In this document: positions 1,578 through 46,878 of the stretch, one piece after another
Position numbering within the stretch: position 1 is the first letter of the stretch
Layout of the letters: each line of letters begins with the position of its first letter
Assembly: GCF_003384725.1 (NCBI RefSeq)
Contig: NZ_QNVV01000005.1
Location: 1 to 64,000 of the forward strand
Length of the DNA: 64,000 bases
DNA from: Chryseobacterium pennipullorum
GTDB taxonomy: Bacteria; Bacteroidota; Bacteroidia; Flavobacteriales; Weeksellaceae
Direction of reading: 5' to 3'
Translations under genes and position numbers: made by a program
Notes under the pieces: generated by a model
Seen by the model: the letters and a program-made list of their open reading frames with translations, nothing else
Databases searched by the model: none
Told to the model about the DNA's origin: nothing

Positions 1578-1683
1578 GGCTCCTCCTGCTGGGCTCGAAC
1601 CAGCGACCCTCTGATTAACAGTCAGATGCTCTAACCAACTGAGCTAAGGAGGAATGTCCTTTGTTTTAAGTGGTGCAAATATA
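1573..1683. repeat. direct repeat around tRNA-Asn, copy 2
   Basis: Exact second copy of positions 1-111. The two copies bracket about 1.46 kb that holds a single gene. Confidence 0.9.
1577..1653 (-). tRNA. tRNA-Asn (GUU), copy 2
   Basis: Identical in sequence to the copy at 5-81, with anticodon GTT, intact acceptor and T arms and encoded CCA. It has its own promoter upstream and its own terminator downstream, so it should be expressed independently of copy 1. Confidence 0.96.
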
Positions 1684-39964: not shown

Positions 39965-42799
39965 ATGAAAAAGTTTTATTCTGTTGTTGCAGTGTTCATT
40001 GCAGTATTTGTATTCGGGCAGATTAACTATACCGTCACTCCTCATCCTTTTAATGAAACGGATGCTGTGACCCTTACCATCCCAGGTGATCAGATTGATG
40101 AATCTGCGTGGGGAGTCACCAATCATGCCGTGTACATCTGGTCTTGGTCTTTTGATATTCATTATCAGAACAGCCAGGACTGTCCTTCCAATGGAAGCTG
40201 GAATGATTCCAGTGAGTTGAACAGGTTTGTTTACAATGCAGGAACCGATTCTTATTCTTTAACCTTCACCCCAACTACTTTCTTCGGCAGAACAGGAATA
40301 GGACGCTTTGGATTTTTAATAAAAGATAAAACAGGAGCTCACCAAACCTCACCCGATATTTTTGTGAATGTAGGGACATTGAATCTTGATTTAACCAATC
40401 CTCTGGCTAATAGTCTGACGTCAGTTCCTGCAGGAAACTCTATCAATATTACTGCTGCAACCAACGCAAACGCTACTTTTCAGCTGAAAGCAAACGGAAC
40501 TGTAGTACACTCCACCAGCAGCCCTTCGCAATCATATGCTCACCCGTACACCGTGACCCAGGATGCTGAAATGGAACTGGTGGCCACACAGGGTTCTAGT
40601 GTAAAAAAAGCAGTTTTTACGTTACAGGTCCCACGCAATGTGACTTCTGAAGCAATTCCGAACTGGATCAAACAGGGGATCAATGATCATCCCACAGACC
40701 AGACCAAGGTAGGATTGGCACTGTACGCCCCCGGTAAAAATTTCGTGCATGTAATCGGAAGTTTCAACAACTGGACCGTAAATGATGCTTATCTGATGAA
40801 AAGAGATACGGTAAACCCTGACCTGTACTGGATTGAGCTCACCGGAATAACCCCACAGCAGCTTTACACTTTCCAGTACCGGACCAATGACCTCAAAAAG
40901 GTAGCAGATCCTTATTCTCCACAAATCCTTTCTCCCTATGATGATCCGTGGATTTCAGCCTCTACTTATCCCAATTTACCTTCATTTCCTATAGGACAGA
41001 ATTTCGAAGTTTCTACATTCAGAACAGGAAAGACTCCCTACAGCTGGCAGGTTACCAATTTCCAGAGGCCCCCAAAGGAGGATCTGGTGGTATATGAACT
41101 GCTGTTAAGAGATTTTACGCAGGAAAAGAACTGGCAGTCACTGATCAATAAAATTTCTTATTTAAAAAATTTACACATCAACGCGATCGAGCTTCTTCCG
41201 ATCATGGAATTTGACGGGAATCTGTCATGGGGCTATAATACGTCTTTCCATTATGCATTGGATAAAGCGTATGGCACCCCGGAGAAATTTAAGGAATTTG
41301 TAGATCTGTGCCATCAGAATGGGATTGCTGTTATTCTGGATGTTGCTTTTAACCATGCTACAGGCCGATCTCCGCTCGTGAGATTATGGAATGTAGATCC
41401 CGACGGAGACGGCTATGGAGAGGTAGCCGCCAATAACCCGTATTTCAATCAGGTTCCGAAGCACTCGTATAATGTATTTAATGATTTCAACCATTCGAGT
41501 CTTTATACTCAATATTACGTCGAAAGATGTCTCCAGCAGTGGCTTACAGAATATCATATCGATGGTTTCCGTTGGGATCTTACTAAAGGATTTACTCAAA
41601 ACTGCTCTGAAAACGACGAGGCCTGTACCAATGCCTACCAACAGGATCGGGTAGATATTATGAAACAATATGCTGACAAACAATGGGCAATTGATCCCAA
41701 TTCCTACATGATCTTCGAACATCTTGGTACTGATGCAGAAGAACAGCAGTGGGCAAATTACAGGGTGGCAGAAGGAAAAGGTGTGTTGATGTGGAATAAA
41801 CAGACTGAGCCTTACAACCAAAATACAATGGGATACAAGGAGAACAGTAATTATGATAGGATGAATCATAACCTACACGGTTTTACTGAAATGCGTGCTG
41901 TGGGCTATGGAGAAAGCCATGATGAAGAGCGGTTAATGTTTAAAAACCTTGCTTACGGAGCTGTCAATGGTAGCTACAGCGTTAAAAATCTAACAACAGC
42001 ACTTGACAGAATGAAAACTTTTGGAGCGACGTTCTTTACGATTCCCGGTCCGAAAATGATCTGGCAGTTTGGAGAGCTTGGGTATGAGTTCAGTATCAAC
42101 AGATGTGCAAATGGCACCATTGATCCGGGATGCAGAACTGATGAGAAACCTGTTGCCTTTTCGTTAGGATATGATACGGACATTAACAGGAAAGCGGTAT
42201 ACGATACCTGGGCAAAAATTATCGATATCAGAAATACCAATGCCGTTTTCAGATCAAAAACCTATACGCTGGAGTCCAATAACCTTGCTAATGATCCCGA
42301 GGGACTGATTACAAGGCTCTATGTATATGACGATACCCTGAACGGTATTAAAAATGTGGTGGTCATAGCCAACTACTCCACTTCTGTACAGCAGGTAGTT
42401 CCTTACTTTCCGTATACAGGCCATTGGCAGAATCTGATGGATGCATCGTTGGTATCCGTTGTTTCCACTACTGCACCCATTTCGTTACAGCCTGGGGAAT
42501 TCAGAATCTTCGGAAATGATCCGGGAACACTTTCCACAGCAGATGAAAATGCTGCCCATAAGCTGTCGTTGCAAATAGCAGATAACCCGGTAAAAAATGG
42601 GGTGACACAGTTGATCTTCAATAAGGCTAAAAACGGTGAGATCCGGATTTTTGATAGGTCTGGTAAAATGCTGGATATGTTCAGGCTGAATAAAGAAAGT
42701 GGAAGTCATGAACTGAAAATCAGTTATCCTCCGGGAATTTACTTGGTTCAGCTGAAAACTGAGACCGGGATCGCGATTCAGAAAATGATTATACACTAA
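39965..42799 (+). CDS. secreted GH13 alpha-amylase-family protein with T9SS sorting domain
   Basis: A 944-aa protein starting at the ATG at 39965 with a signal sequence (MKKFYSVVAVFIAVFVFGQ). Beta-sandwich domains (E-set/CBM48-like, AVYIWSWSFDIHYQ and VHVIGSFNNWTVND) precede the GH13 barrel. Catalytic residues can be seen: LDVAFNHATG, nucleophile Asp in DGFRWDLTKG, acid/base Glu in IFEHLG and the GESHDEE His-Asp pair. A small C-terminal beta domain and a T9SS type A sorting domain (IADNPVKNG... GIYLVQLKTETGIAIQKM) end it. It probably cuts alpha-glucans outside the cell. No susC/D or other glycan genes lie next to it. Confidence 0.92.
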   Translation: MKKFYSVVAVFIAVFVFGQINYTVTPHPFNETDAVTLTIPGDQIDESAWGVTNHAVYIWSWSFDIHYQNSQDCPSNGSWNDSSELNRFVYNAGTDSYSLTFTPTTFFGRTGIGRFGFLIKDKTGAHQTSPDIFVNVGTLNLDLTNPLANSLTSVPAGNSINITAATNANATFQLKANGTVVHSTSSPSQSYAHPYTVTQDAEMELVATQGSSVKKAVFTLQVPRNVTSEAIPNWIKQGINDHPTDQTKVGLALYAPGKNFVHVIGSFNNWTVNDAYLMKRDTVNPDLYWIELTGITPQQLYTFQYRTNDLKKVADPYSPQILSPYDDPWISASTYPNLPSFPIGQNFEVSTFRTGKTPYSWQVTNFQRPPKEDLVVYELLLRDFTQEKNWQSLINKISYLKNLHINAIELLPIMEFDGNLSWGYNTSFHYALDKAYGTPEKFKEFVDLCHQNGIAVILDVAFNHATGRSPLVRLWNVDPDGDGYGEVAANNPYFNQVPKHSYNVFNDFNHSSLYTQYYVERCLQQWLTEYHIDGFRWDLTKGFTQNCSENDEACTNAYQQDRVDIMKQYADKQWAIDPNSYMIFEHLGTDAEEQQWANYRVAEGKGVLMWNKQTEPYNQNTMGYKENSNYDRMNHNLHGFTEMRAVGYGESHDEERLMFKNLAYGAVNGSYSVKNLTTALDRMKTFGATFFTIPGPKMIWQFGELGYEFSINRCANGTIDPGCRTDEKPVAFSLGYDTDINRKAVYDTWAKIIDIRNTNAVFRSKTYTLESNNLANDPEGLITRLYVYDDTLNGIKNVVVIANYSTSVQQVVPYFPYTGHWQNLMDASLVSVVSTTAPISLQPGEFRIFGNDPGTLSTADENAAHKLSLQIADNPVKNGVTQLIFNKAKNGEIRIFDRSGKMLDMFRLNKESGSHELKISYPPGIYLVQLKTETGIAIQKMIIH

Positions 42800-42807
42800 G
42801 AAAAATT

Positions 42808-42842
42808 AAAAAGGCAAGCCTGCATAGCAGATTTGCCTTTTT
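42808..42842 (+). terminator. terminator after the GH13 gene
   Basis: AAAAAGGCAA / TTGCCTTTTT stem with a 15-nt loop, separating the GH13 gene from the SAM riboswitch unit. Confidence 0.75.
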
Positions 42843-42864
42843 AATTGAAGGACCATTTCTTTTT

Positions 42865-42894
42865 TTGTCTATTAGAAAAAATAGTCTACTTTTG
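42865..42894 (+). promoter_or_regulatory. promoter of the SAM riboswitch transcript
   Basis: TTG (42865-42867), 19-nt spacer, TACTTTTG (42887-42894); transcription should begin directly at the 5' edge of the riboswitch. Confidence 0.7.
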
Positions 42895-42901
42895 CAGTAG
42901 A

Positions 42902-43003
42902 TTTATCAAGAAAGGTGGAGGGATTTGGCCCAATGAAACCTTAGCAACCTGCACGGTTCCAGAAGTGTAAAGGTGCTAATTCCAACCCGGAGGGGGAGAT
43001 AAG
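42902..43003 (+). promoter_or_regulatory. SAM-I (S-box) riboswitch
   Basis: The aptamer core is easily recognised: ATCAAGAAAGGTGGAGGGA, then TTGGCCCAATGAAACC, TTAGCAACCTGCAC, the variable arm with GGTGCTAATTCC and the closing P1 strand GATAAG pairing with TTTATC. All the conserved kink-turn and SAM-binding-pocket blocks of the S-box are in order. It lies 97 nt upstream of a TonB-dependent receptor gene. Downstream, TCTGCGG and CCGGCAGA can form a hairpin but without a T run, so the mode of control is not clear. The ligand, S-adenosylmethionine, normally turns expression off. Confidence 0.93.
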
Positions 43004-43099
43004 TGAAGTCAATATTCTTATATGAATTCCATTTCTTGAAGTCTTGTGTATCTGCGGAGCGATCCGGCAGAATCGTATTATTAATTGCAAGAGGAAAAG

Positions 43100-45543
43100 A
43101 TGAAAAAATTAAGCATCACAATTTTATTACTCACGGCAGGTTGGGCAACTGCTCAGGAGGAAGTGGACAAAGGAAAACAGATCGAAGACATTGTCATTGT
43201 TGGAAACCGGAATGTGAAGAGGACAAAACTGGAAACTCCGGTTCCTGTAGATGTGATCAGTATTGAAAAAATACAAAAAGCTTCACCTCAGACGACGGTT
43301 CAGGATCTGCTCAATTATGTAGTTCCTTCCTTTAATTCTGTGAGGCAGTCGGCATCGGATGGTACCGAGCATATTGATCCTGTAACGTTAAGAGGAATGG
43401 GGCCGGATCAGGTTCTGGTACTGGTGAATGGTAAAAGAAGGCATACCACTTCGCTGGTGAATTACCAGAATACGGTAGGAAATGGCTCCGTAGGGACAGA
43501 TCTCAGCACAATTCCTGTCATAGCAATTGACAGAATAGAGGTGTTGAGGGATGGAGCTGCCGCTCAATATGGTTCTGACGCGATTGCCGGTGTGATTAAT
43601 ATTATCCTTAAAAAGAATGCAGGGGCCTCAGCCAGCCTCACGTACGGCCTCAGCGGAAGAAATGACGGGGATACTTACCAGGCTGGAGCAAACTACGGAA
43701 CGTCTTTAGGTAAGGAAGAAAGTTATATCAACCTTTCATTACAATTGAGCCACAGAGGAAAAACAACAAGAACCCAAAATCATGATCTTGATATTTTTGG
43801 AGATAACTTTGCCTACGAATTTGCACCGAATCCTGTTCAGGCAAGAAAAGATGATGACGACGAAATAAGAGCAAGAGGGCTTACCCGGGACTATTTTAAC
43901 TTCCAGATAGGAGATGCTCAGATCCGACAGGCGCAGCTGGCCTTCAATGCAGAATATCCCTTTAATGATCGCCTGAAACTGTACTCTTTCGGAGGTTTTA
44001 GTATCAAAGAAGGAGAGGGTTTTGGTTTCAGAAGACTGCCCAATGAAACCTCCAATGTGGTTTCATCCATTTATCCTAATGGTTTTCAGGCGGTCTTGGG
44101 ATCTCAGATTTATGATTTTTCTTATGCTGTAGGAGCAAAATATAATATCAACAATTGGTTGTTTGATCTCAGCAATACATTGGGGAGCAACACATTCAAT
44201 TACAAGGTAAGCAATACCAATAATGCTTCTTTAGGTGTAAAATCCCCTACCAGCTTCTACGCAGGAGCCCATCGCTTTTTACAGAATACTGTAAATCTTG
44301 ACGTTTCTAAAAATATCAACCGGTTCAATATAGCTTTTGGTGGGGAATTCAGGTTTGAACAATATGAGATCAAAGCCGGTGAAGAAGCCTCTTATGCCCA
44401 GTATGATGTGAATGGAAACATTGCAGTGGGCGGATCAGAGGTGCTGGGAGTGGGTGGATCACAATCCTTTATAGGGTTTTCACCCCGCAATGCGCTGAAA
44501 AAAGACAGGCATTCAACAGCAGTGTATGCAGATGTATCCTATGACCTGGATAAAAAGCTGAATATAGATGCTGCCGCAAGATTTGAAAACTACTCAGACT
44601 TTGGAAATACACTGAACGGGAAGCTTTCCGTAAGATATGAATTCATAAAAAATTATGCAGTACGGGCAGCTGTTGGTACGGGCTTCAGAGCGCCATCGCT
44701 TCAGCAGCAGTATTTTAACAACTCTTACGCTGATATTTCCACAACAGGATCTAAAATTGTAACGAAAGGAATTTTCAATAATGATAGCAACGCATCGCAG
44801 ATTCTTGGATTCGACCGTCTGAAACAGGAAACCTCTTTGAATGGAAGCGCAGGATTTACCCTGAGACCAGCTAAAGGATTATTTATTACATTAGATGGAT
44901 ATATTATTAAAGTGAAAGATAGAATTGTCATTACCGGTAATATTACGGATGCCAGATTATCTGATCCCGGTGTCGTAGGTAATGGAAACGAAGTGGAAAG
45001 CGGAAGGTTCTTTGCCAACGCCATCGATACAGAGACAAAAGGAGTTGATCTGGTGGTTTCCTATGACTGGAAGCTGGGTAATGGAAACCTGAATGTAAAT
45101 CTTGCCGGAAACTACACGGAAACGAAGATTACGGACTTTCATTTTCCTGAAAATATAGATACGCCCCGTGAGCAGTATTTCGGCCCCGATCAGGTTAATA
45201 TCATTGAAACCCTCTCCCCGAAGACAAAAGCGTCTTTAGGATTGAATTATGGAGCCGGTAAATTAGTTTTCTTGTAAGAAATACCTATTTTGGTAAGGTG
45301 ATAAGAGACGGATTTCCTTTTGGAGAGGTTCAGGGATTTTCTCCGAAGGTGGTTACAGATATCAGTATTGGATATGATATCACAAAGAATATCAATTTTA
45401 CAGTGGGAGCGAACAATGTATTTGATGTTTTTCCTGACCTTCAGATTTACAAAAATTCATACTATGGAGTATTTAAATATGCCCCGGTTCAGATGGGAAC
45501 ACTGGGAAGTTATTTCTTCGGAAGACTTAATTTTAATTTTTAA
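43100..45543 (+). pseudogene. TonB-dependent receptor, frameshifted near the 3' end
   Basis: A TonB-dependent outer-membrane receptor interrupted by a frameshift. The first frame (43100-45277) has a signal peptide (MKKLSITILLLTAGWATAQ), the plug domain with VQDLLNYVVPSF, LRGMGPDQVLVLVNGKRR and IEVLRDGAAAQYGSDAIAG, and most of the barrel, ending early with KLVFL at a TAA. The next frame continues the barrel without loss (RNTYFGKVIRDGFPFGEV, then the terminal strands to GRLNFNF at 45543). One missing base near 45263-45271 joins the two (KLSFLVRN). Placed behind a SAM-I riboswitch and 6 nt before an APC permease. The substrate is probably methionine or a related sulfur compound; this is inference. 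Without the last strands the barrel should not fold, unless the shift is a sequencing error. Confidence 0.85.
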
Positions 45544-45549
45544 CCGTTA

Positions 45550-46878
45550 ATGAGTACCGTTTCACATCAGATCGGCTGGAAAACAGCGGCTGCCATTGTA
45601 GTCTCCAATATGATTGGGACTGGGATTTTTACCACTCTCGGGTTTCAGCTGTCCGATATAACCAATACATTCAGTATTTTTCTGCTTTGGGCTATTGGTG
45701 GTGTCCTCGCGTTGTTTGGAGCTTTTTGTTATGCCGAATTAGGCTCACATTTTAAAGGAAACGGAGGTGATTTTATCTATCTTAAAGAGACTTATCATCC
45801 GTTATTCGGATATCTTATCAGCTGGATTTCGTTAATCATTGGATTTTCTTCACCTGTGGCACTGGCTGCACTCGCGATGTCAAAATACCTTTCAGTATTT
45901 GAGTTTTCCTTTGGGAATGGGTTTGCCATTGCTGCTATTTGCCTGGTTGCTGCTGCCTTGTCATTCAGTTTAAAAACCTCAAGCAGATTTCATAATTTTT
46001 TCACCTTTATCAAAGTAGCTTTTATTATCGTTTTGGTGATTTTAGGCGTTGGTCTTTCGGGAAACCCACAGGTTGGAAATAGCCTGAATTTCAGTAACAG
46101 TTGGAAAGATGAGCTGTTACTTCCAGCCTTTGCTACTTCATTGGTTTTTGTGACCTATTCCTACACCGGCTGGAATTCTGCGTCTTATATTGCAGGGGAA
46201 ATAAAAGATGTACAGAAAAACCTTCCCAAATCCCTGATTATAGGAACTGTTTTTGTAACCGTAAGCTATATTCTTGTGAATTACATTATGCTGAAACACG
46301 CTCCGGCAGATCAGCTGGCAGGCAAAGAAGATGTAATGGGTGAAGCCGCTGTCAATATGCTGGGGCCTGCCTTTGGGAAAATAGTCAATATATTCATTGC
46401 ATTACAGCTTATCGCTACCATCAGTGGCTATCTTTGGGTTGGGTCAAGGCTTACGCAGGCTTTTGCAAAAGAGACCTATATCTGGAAGCCTCTTTCTACA
46501 GGCAATAAAAAAGGAATTCCGGTAAGGGCTATTTTTGCCCACGCAGTTATTGCTTCCATTATTATCCTGACCGGAAGCTTTAAAGAAATATTTGTGTATA
46601 CCGCCTTTATCCTTCAGCTGTTTGCGAGTCTGGCCATTTCTACCATATATTTTCTTAAAAAAGAAGACCGGAAAATATTTAAGTCCAATAGTTTCTATAT
46701 TTTCCCCACTGTTTTTCTACTATTCAGTGTATATATTCTCTATTTTACTTTGATCCATAATCCTAAAGAAAGCATGATCGGACTGGGAATTGTAGGAGTA
46801 GGAATTCTTTTGTATATACTCGACAGAAAACTTTCCCGTAATACGAAGAAGGAAACAGATGGTTCTGAAGAGGGCTAG
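45550..46878 (+). CDS. APC-family amino acid permease
   Basis: A 442-aa inner-membrane transporter with about 12 hydrophobic segments. The APC signature GTGIFTTLGFQ follows an unwound first helix (VVSNMIGTGIF), and the helix-6 region FVTYSYTGWNSASYIAGEI is typical. It begins 6 nt after the TonB-dependent receptor, and both are behind the SAM riboswitch, so it should carry the same type of substrate across the inner membrane, most likely methionine or a close relative. Confidence 0.9.
   Translation: MSTVSHQIGWKTAAAIVVSNMIGTGIFTTLGFQLSDITNTFSIFLLWAIGGVLALFGAFCYAELGSHFKGNGGDFIYLKETYHPLFGYLISWISLIIGFSSPVALAALAMSKYLSVFEFSFGNGFAIAAICLVAAALSFSLKTSSRFHNFFTFIKVAFIIVLVILGVGLSGNPQVGNSLNFSNSWKDELLLPAFATSLVFVTYSYTGWNSASYIAGEIKDVQKNLPKSLIIGTVFVTVSYILVNYIMLKHAPADQLAGKEDVMGEAAVNMLGPAFGKIVNIFIALQLIATISGYLWVGSRLTQAFAKETYIWKPLSTGNKKGIPVRAIFAHAVIASIIILTGSFKEIFVYTAFILQLFASLAISTIYFLKKEDRKIFKSNSFYIFPTVFLLFSVYILYFTLIHNPKESMIGLGIVGVGILLYILDRKLSRNTKKETDGSEEG

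Follow-up and report, generated by a model that had tools for sequence, protein, structure and literature searches.

A SAM-I riboswitch leading a TonB-dependent receptor and an amino acid permease in Chryseobacterium and two related genera: a candidate route of methionine uptake

The 64,000-nucleotide stretch of Chryseobacterium pennipullorum DNA analysed here (the window) carries an operon in which a SAM-I riboswitch precedes the genes for a TonB-dependent receptor (TBDR) and an amino acid permease. Since we found this unit in three related genera, in differing surroundings, we regard it as a probable dedicated route of methionine uptake. Judging from the sequence, SAM-controlled uptake of a methionine-related solute is the likely function of the operon; given such uptake, free methionine as the substrate of the receptor is conceivable, at somewhat less than an even chance. 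Among the open-access papers covered by our searches we found no description of this uptake arrangement. Many TonB-dependent receptors are, to our knowledge, without a known substrate, and here the riboswitch gives a direct hint of what is carried. With the conserved unit, the question whether an amino acid, or a small compound yielding one, is actively taken up through the outer membrane can be put directly to experiment. The unit also suggests that in the Bacteroidota control by methionine extends as far as the cell surface, with possible consequences for the cross-feeding of amino acids.

Anatomy of the operon and its leader

Table 1. Features of the riboswitch-led operon in the window
Feature	Position	Strand	Basis
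Promoter TTTG-N19-TACTTTTG	42864..42894	+	TTTG 42864-42867, 19-nt spacer, TACTTTTG 42887-42894
SAM-I (S-box) riboswitch aptamer	42900..43005	+	RF00162, 79.4 bits
Putative expression-platform element ATTCCATTTCTTGA	43026..43039	+	complementary to aptamer bases 42906-42913 (TCAAGAAA)
TBDR, N-terminal 725 aa up to frame break	43100..45277	+	PF07715, PF00593; SAM-I and permease also present at orthologues
C-terminal part of this receptor, other frame	45265..45543	+	90% identity to L040, an intact orthologue, by tblastn
APC-superfamily amino acid permease, LAT type, 442 aa	45550..46878	+	PF13520, 179.9 bits

The aptamer matches the RF00162 covariance model over its full length (model positions 1-108; 79.4 bits vs a gathering score of 44.4; E 4.7e-17 in the window). 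It contains GCAACC/GGTGC, which we take to be the canonical SAM-I core motif and which is also present in 40/40 orthologous leaders; a chance match is ruled out by score and conservation. A reading made earlier from the sequence only had described the S-box as nearly canonical and preceded by a matched promoter, and both descriptions hold. The promoter elements, presumably the Bacteroidota consensus, have mean column identities of 0.94 (TTTG) and 0.95 (TACTTTTG) over 41 leaders vs 0.815 for the spacer, and a scan of the leader region for sigma-70-type promoters returned 0 sites on the + strand.

In the leader comparison the platform diverges except for one element, the 8-nt TTTCTTGA. It is complementary to the aptamer, exact in 40 of these 41 leaders and in 17/18 leaders of two other genera, and better conserved than any other 8-mer of the platform (0.997 vs a median of 0.805). 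Among other SAM-I leaders of the genus it is absent from 30/30 metX and 21/21 SusCD leaders. For the duplex between platform element and aptamer strand -13.1 kcal/mol is predicted. The fold of the whole leader RNA is no better than that of shuffles (z -0.20). When G-U pairs were tolerated, between 1 and 137 of 200 shuffles reached the observed helix length in 19 leaders (87 for the window), and the helix with the 5' side of the aptamer is not reliably singled out in single leaders. Since such shuffles do not discriminate, the case for an alternative helix rests on conservation. An intrinsic terminator was looked for on the + strand from 42700 to 43300 and none was found; the start region is predicted to be sequestered only weakly (unpaired 0.48 vs 0.57, mean of 40 leaders). 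Control by the platform would probably be exerted at translation.

SAM-I riboswitches normally turn expression off when SAM is bound, and we infer the same here, with translational control and a methionine-related substrate. At low intracellular SAM, UUUCUUGA would pair with UCAAGAAA of the aptamer, and receptor and permease would be made. With ample SAM, the aptamer would close, the element would be released and expression would fall, probably at translation. The TonB-energised receptor would bring the solute through the outer membrane, after which the solute, or an amino acid derived from it, would cross the inner membrane by way of the LAT-type permease.

The receptor starts at the ATG at 43100, and its Plug (PF07715, 80.9 bits) and barrel (PF00593, 108.3 bits) domains score above the Pfam cut-offs. 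Its frame stops at 45277, and the remainder continues in another frame to 45543. Accordingly, the intact orthologue L040 (814 aa) matches the window in two frames (43100-45274 at 88% and 45265-45540 at 90% identity). A frame complete to the C-terminal strand is lacking in the window and present in relatives, whose orthologous receptor frames are intact at about 800-870 aa. The sequence-only reading had overlooked this disruption near 45.27 kb. The receptor and carrier genes that it named are confirmed by their domains, but the 6 nt that it placed between them apply solely to the out-of-frame end at 45543, because the receptor frame stops at 45277.

The break may be real or an assembly error. 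As the frame is broken in the assembly, this strain of C. pennipullorum may lack a working uptake route. It is a real possibility, if not quite a probable one, that the unit is decaying in this strain, with the receptor a pseudogene and only the permease perhaps still active; this would be compatible with SAM-controlled uptake as the function of the operon. Decay would explain a disrupted frame whose C-terminal part is otherwise 90% identical to L040, next to an open permease frame. However, an event of very recent date or a fault of the assembly would leave the sequence past the break just as similar, and the orthologues are intact.

Conservation of the unit in relatives

SAM-I precedes the receptor by at most 250 nt in 37/38 orthologues of the genus (at least 77% identity), a count obtained by comparing two result tables by eye and not by script. 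In the exception (G039, 410 contigs) SAM-I was not found on the contig of the receptor orthologue. The receptor has the core motif upstream and the permease downstream in 40/40 loci, 39 from Chryseobacterium and one from a Weeksellaceae MAG. In two other genera (g260 and g264) all 18 fetched loci have RF00162 above the gathering score upstream and the permease directly after, at 56-62% identity for the receptor and 55-61% for the permease, so that riboswitch, TBDR and inner-membrane carrier occur together across genera. The genes flanking the unit differ between genera, which we take as a sign that it has been kept together for its function.

The search in relatives that had been suggested with the sequence-only reading thus recovered the arrangement, and in none of the three comparisons did it bring to light orthologues under another ligand, which would have spoken against that reading. 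Of the two-membrane route that it proposed, the arrangement is conserved, with the permease as partner in 40 plus 18 loci; the substrate, methionine or a related compound, we infer. The route is dispensable, since 22/60 genomes of the genus are without a receptor orthologue. A tree of 23 sequences separates the receptors linked to SAM-I and permease from the rest, with a local support of 1.000. The paralogues L281 and L282 from g260 and g264 have neither SAM-I nor permease, and three receptor paralogues in the C. pennipullorum genome have no SAM-I nearby. Elsewhere in that genome SAM-I heads a methionine-biosynthesis operon (metX-HSD-metB/Z-metH) at one site and a SusC/SusD pair at a second, which speaks for SAM-controlled uptake of a methionine-related solute.

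All six g260 genomes keep the operon. MetX gave no match in four of them, a marginal one in the fifth and a clear one in the sixth (G751), and MetA was found in 0/6; metB-like, HSD-like and MetH-type genes are retained. Methionine auxotrophy, considered in view of the missing MetX and MetA, is not established, and we do not claim it: genes resembling metB and HSD are still there, the MetX match in G751 is clear, and the cut-off of the MetX model was reached by 0/19 genomes, that of C. pennipullorum included. Nor would it be general, as 11/12 g264 genomes have a clear MetX.

Candidate substrates

The permease has an open frame and scores 179.9 bits with PF13520 (cut-off 27). None of the curated models for its substrate scored above cut-off: the best NCBIfam model, TIGR00911 (L-type amino acid transporter), gave 179.8 bits, below its cut-off of 701.8, and the L-methionine/branched-chain transporter model NF008245 gave 65.5 vs 284 bits. 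It matches a b(0,+)-type transporter (E 1e-44) and 6f2g (E 2e-34) in the PDB and appears to belong to the group of neutral/large amino acid transporters. Its YTGW is aligned opposite the YDGW of b(0,+)AT, where the aspartate favours cationic substrates. For the first 725 aa of the receptor, too, no curated substrate model was reached above cut-off, neither the BtuB model TIGR01779 (101.9 vs 599.7 bits) nor the FepA-type siderophore model NF010048 (102.1 vs 493 bits). The SusC signature stays below cut-off (20.1 vs 46.2 bits), and the gene next to the receptor is the permease, not a SusD-type partner. The predicted structure of L040 (21-row alignment) has a mean pLDDT of 55.2.

It might also be that a peptide containing methionine, or some other organosulfur compound, enters and is cut in the periplasm, and that the amino acid thus freed is what the permease carries. 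We consider this rather unlikely, although it overlaps with SAM-controlled uptake of a methionine-related solute. It draws on other SAM-I sites, which we surveyed among the better-scoring ones listed, partly chosen by hand and hence not a random sample; genes were assigned by BLAST matches to a few reference proteins or by eye, with Pfam on selected proteins. The order of SAM-I before SusC/SusD in the C. pennipullorum genome was found at 20/20 fetched Chryseobacterium sites as well, with a variant aptamer core, and would suit peptide uptake, as RagAB, a SusCD-type system, is implicated in protein uptake in the accessible text of PMC11817032. At L261 (family f3) SAM-I leads a one-strand series of genes for SusC and SusD, a thioredoxin-like protein, two peptidases (an M14 carboxypeptidase and one of family S9), an APC permease and an aminotransferase of class V, a plausible peptide route that uses the same superfamily of inner-membrane carriers. 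However, the window operon has neither a peptidase nor a SusD-type lid, and a TBDR of this simple kind, about 815 aa long, would rather suit a smaller ligand.

That the substrate is cobalamin or a corrinoid, brought in to serve MetH, and that the receptor is under SAM control for this reason, is very improbable. MetH-type domains are present, and the TIGR01779 score exceeds those of the first parts of the two cobalamin-riboswitch-led receptors of the C. pennipullorum genome (84.3 and 60.3 bits). But this score lies far below cut-off and near the scores of several siderophore models, and the partner gene is an amino acid permease in all 18 plus 40 SAM-I loci. Moreover, B12 uptake has its own control, as the genome has five cobalamin riboswitches, two of them leading TBDRs and one MetE. 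Even more remote is a siderophore or metallophore receptor merely positioned behind the riboswitch: the plug domain resembles FepA/PirA-type receptors, but all such models stay below cut-off, and SAM-I and permease remain with the receptor across three genera in differing neighbourhoods.

Relation to known systems

Gram-positive SAM-I (S-box) regulons include inner-membrane methionine transporters. The window operon resembles them in probably placing methionine uptake under SAM-I; those bacteria lack an outer membrane, whereas here a TonB-dependent receptor would be controlled as well. SusCD/RagAB systems are likewise TonB-dependent importers of the Bacteroidota, and other SAM-I sites of the phylum lead SusC/SusD, whereas the window receptor is without a SusD partner and shows the SusC signature only below cut-off.

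A parallel with another small solute is the uptake of thiamine. In Bacteroides thetaiotaomicron, according to the accessible text of PMC5613172, TPP riboswitches precede OMthi, which is TonB-dependent, and PnuT, in two operons, and deletions raised the thiamine requirement, which gives genetic support to TonB-dependent thiamine uptake in Bacteroides. Here as there, an end-product riboswitch stands before a TonB-dependent transporter and a separate inner-membrane transporter for a small solute; the window differs in its SAM-I sensor, its APC permease and the placing of both genes in one operon. With this precedent, and with the other SAM-I-led outer-membrane loci, the statement of the sequence-only reading that TonB-dependent uptake of so small a solute is unusual needs softening. 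Cobalamin riboswitches upstream of TBDR genes appear in the accessible text on F. psychrophilum (PMC9723704) and on Gluconobacter (PMC5756330). Such BtuB-type systems, which the C. pennipullorum genome has as well, share the riboswitch upstream of a TBDR, but in the window the aptamer is another one, the receptor is below the B12 cut-off and the partner is an amino acid permease.

SAM-I also stands with a TBDR of a second clade in another genus (L118) and before SusCD with another SusD type in family f17 (L258-L260). That it recurs ahead of outer-membrane transporters unrelated to each other hints at a regulon that is general and has been overlooked. We tentatively suggest that the Bacteroidota might have an undescribed SAM-riboswitch regulon for scavenging methionine at the outer membrane, recruited several times independently (the TBDR with LAT permease, L118, the Chryseobacterium SusCD, L261 and L258-L260), in which the TBDR-permease form would actively pump free methionine across the outer membrane.

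The neighbourhoods of the receptor paralogues, considered as a hint of substrate, gave no consistent picture. One paralogue in the C. pennipullorum genome stands behind a class I/II aminotransferase gene, and one precedes genes for a cobalamin adenosyltransferase and a thiamin pyrophosphokinase. Another is convergent with thiamine-salvage-like genes (assigned by eye), near which a TPP riboswitch lies on the other strand, about 3 kb from the receptor.

Architecture of the operon

A SAM-I riboswitch followed by a TonB-dependent receptor and an APC permease had been recognized in the sequence-only reading, and this arrangement proved right, but a break in the receptor frame had gone unnoticed. 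Counted from its ATG, the frame ends after 725 codons at 45277, and the C-terminal part resumes in another frame and runs to 45543. Both parts match the intact 814-aa receptor of an orthologous locus (L040; 88% and 90% identity), and orthologous frames elsewhere are about 800-870 aa long. The receptor gene is thus interrupted in the assembly at hand (4.80 Mb in 61 contigs), through either a real break or an assembly error. At the locus of Chryseobacterium sp. E1 (L079, CP078104) receptor and permease each match in pieces only, perhaps owing to sequencing errors in this entry. TTTG and TACTTTTG at their spacing are what we take to be the usual Bacteroidota promoter. Around the operon lie an amylase-domain gene and a gene we read as release-factor-like.

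Features of the window (plain positions) and further riboswitches of the same genome
Feature	Position	Strand	Remark
tRNA genes (two)	8-81; 1580-1653	-	identical sequence in the alignments shown
Promoter	TTTG 42864-42867, 19 nt, TACTTTTG 42887-42894	+	just 5' of the aptamer
SAM-I aptamer	42900-43005	+	RF00162, whole model matched, 79.4 bits (gathering score 44.4)
TCAAGAAA	42906-42913		within 5' side of the aptamer
TTTCTTGA	43032-43039		expression platform
TonB-dependent receptor	start 43100	+	Plug and barrel domains
APC amino acid permease	45550-46878	+	
SAM-I before SusC/SusD pair	C3:237253-237349 (L034:354-450)		
Cobalamin riboswitches (five)	C1:166652; C2:59768; C2:186171; C3:280175; C7:175859		L295-L299

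Distribution of the arrangement

Receptor orthologues of at least 77% identity occur in 38 of 60 Chryseobacterium genomes (two as two-piece matches). Comparison of two match tables places a same-strand SAM-I site at most 250 nt upstream in 37 of them, the only one lacking a site in that range being from a genome in 410 contigs (G039). A scan of named genomes returned 41 receptor loci, 39 titled Chryseobacterium, one from a Weeksellaceae MAG and one from Luteimonas, the last a 34% relative. All 40 orthologous loci carry the aptamer core motif upstream and the permease downstream; the gap from receptor stop to permease start is 3-92 nt in 38 of the 40, and at one locus (L070) the permease begins 268 nt past the stop; the remaining locus is the fragmented L079.

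Sought beyond the genus, the arrangement recurred. Among 197 genomes of the family, 18 from two other genera (g260 and g264) hold receptor orthologues of 60-63% identity; in each genus another of the genomes listed (G755 and G725) has a 45% relative only. At all 18 loci, each of which was fetched, RF00162 scores above gathering immediately upstream of the receptor and the next gene is a permease relative (55-61%). The surroundings differ among the window, g260 and g264, with a gene read as ClpC-like upstream in five of six g260 loci and other genes in g264. These 18 loci form a stronger test against chance than those within the genus. Two paralogues from g260/g264 (L281, L282; 42-43% identity) have neither SAM-I nor such a permease, and three receptor paralogues of the own genome have no SAM-I nearby. 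In a tree of 23 sequences, which the window receptor entered as its first piece, a split with a local support of 1.000 sets the receptors linked to SAM-I and permease apart from all others. Another genus (g3) has a SAM-I site leading a 936-aa TonB-dependent receptor that belongs to a different clade and is not followed by a permease (L118). This receptor lies on the opposite side of the split, next to one of the paralogues from the window's genome that lack SAM-I, which suggests that SAM-I was recruited there separately.

Of the genomes sampled, 175 of 296 from the order and 312 of 392 from the phylum contain SAM-I matches (E 0.001). A TonB-dependent gene comes first behind two of the 88 order sites read (L118 and L158 among L081-L168, three of the sites being from Chryseobacterium). 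Six lead thioredoxin-like and/or class V aminotransferase genes, as read, and the remaining 80 have methionine-pathway-type genes within two frames. Three of 69 phylum sites (L189-L257) lead SusC/SusD, L229 directly and L243 and L247 after one gene. A third Chryseobacterium class of SAM-I leads SusC/SusD in all 20 fetched loci (L169-L188) and in the own genome; instead of GCAACC/GGTGC its core reads ACAACC (21/21) and GGTGT (19/21, two not found). This variant core is also shared by L118.

The richest case of SAM-I-led outer-membrane uptake is L261 of family f3, where SAM-I (called on L158, a shorter cut of this locus) is followed by SusC, SusD, thioredoxin-like, M14 carboxypeptidase, S9 peptidase, APC permease and class V aminotransferase genes. 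This locus is thus a second, independent instance in which SAM-I precedes both outer-membrane uptake and an APC permease. Apart from L261, six SAM-I sites of its genus lead thioredoxin-like and/or aminotransferase genes, as read. Translations from family f17, as read, show a 212-aa redoxin-like protein behind SAM-I at L226, L248 and L253, and a cysteine-desulfurase-like one at L235 and L260; the L260 protein matches Aminotran_5 and has SusC/SusD next.

A candidate switch in the expression platform

Between aptamer and receptor start codon, TTTCTTGA is the most conserved 8-mer (mean identity 0.997 vs a platform median of 0.805). An exact copy stands in 40 of 41 Chryseobacterium-group leaders and in 17 of 18 from g260/g264, whose platforms otherwise diverge. 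None of 30 metX and 21 SusCD leaders from the genus contains it; it is present in 7/86 other order leaders and 0/69 phylum leaders. TTTCTTGA is complementary to TCAAGAAA, and the extended duplex reaches -13.1 kcal/mol. We propose that TTTCTTGA pairs with the aptamer when SAM is absent, and that bound SAM frees it to pair near the start codon. This second half of the model is weak, because the unpaired fraction of the start region shifts little (0.48 vs 0.57, mean over 40 leaders), no + strand terminator was found in the leader, and the overall leader fold has a z of -0.20. Taken singly, 19 leaders mostly do not exceed a G-U-tolerant shuffle control, a helix as long as the observed one arising in 1-137 of 200 shuffles (87 for the window leader).

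No description of SAM-I ahead of a TonB-dependent receptor was found in the literature searched, which covered few subscription journals; the word TonB is absent from the main text of PMC2258182 and of the regulon survey PMC3766115. The nearest known logic is that of OMthi and PnuT, which TPP controls in B. thetaiotaomicron (PMC5613172). In that system a response at the RNA level was seen for the biosynthetic operon and none for the transport operons; in our reading, translational control of the latter would fit this.

Possible substrate

The comparative evidence supports the earlier proposal that receptor and permease may form a two-membrane uptake route for a methionine-related solute; we infer the substrate from the regulation of the operon, and infer the direction of control as well. 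No curated substrate model attains its cut-off for receptor or permease. Among named models the permease is nearest to the LAT group, and its nearest structures are b(0,+)-type and 6f2g. It carries threonine opposite the b(0,+)AT aspartate of the YDGW stretch, a residue that favours cationic substrates; this suggests that the permease takes neutral ones. A B12 receptor is unlikely, since the genome has five cobalamin riboswitches of its own, leading two TonB-dependent receptors, MetE and, by reading of translations, a thioesterase-like small protein and a secreted protein.

Besides the SusC/SusD site, the own genome has one more SAM-I site outside the window, before genes read as metX (a sub-cut-off match), homoserine dehydrogenase, Cys/Met-metabolism PLP enzyme and homocysteine S-methyltransferase. 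MetA has no match in any of 19 genomes, and a MetH-type domain is found in all 19. MetX matches clearly in 11 of 12 g264 genomes (weakly only in G711); in g260 it is clear in G751, marginal in G723 and without match in the other four of six. The gene content suggests that some g260 genomes might depend on outside methionine. In five g260 genomes a second SAM-I site leads metB-like and HSD-like genes.
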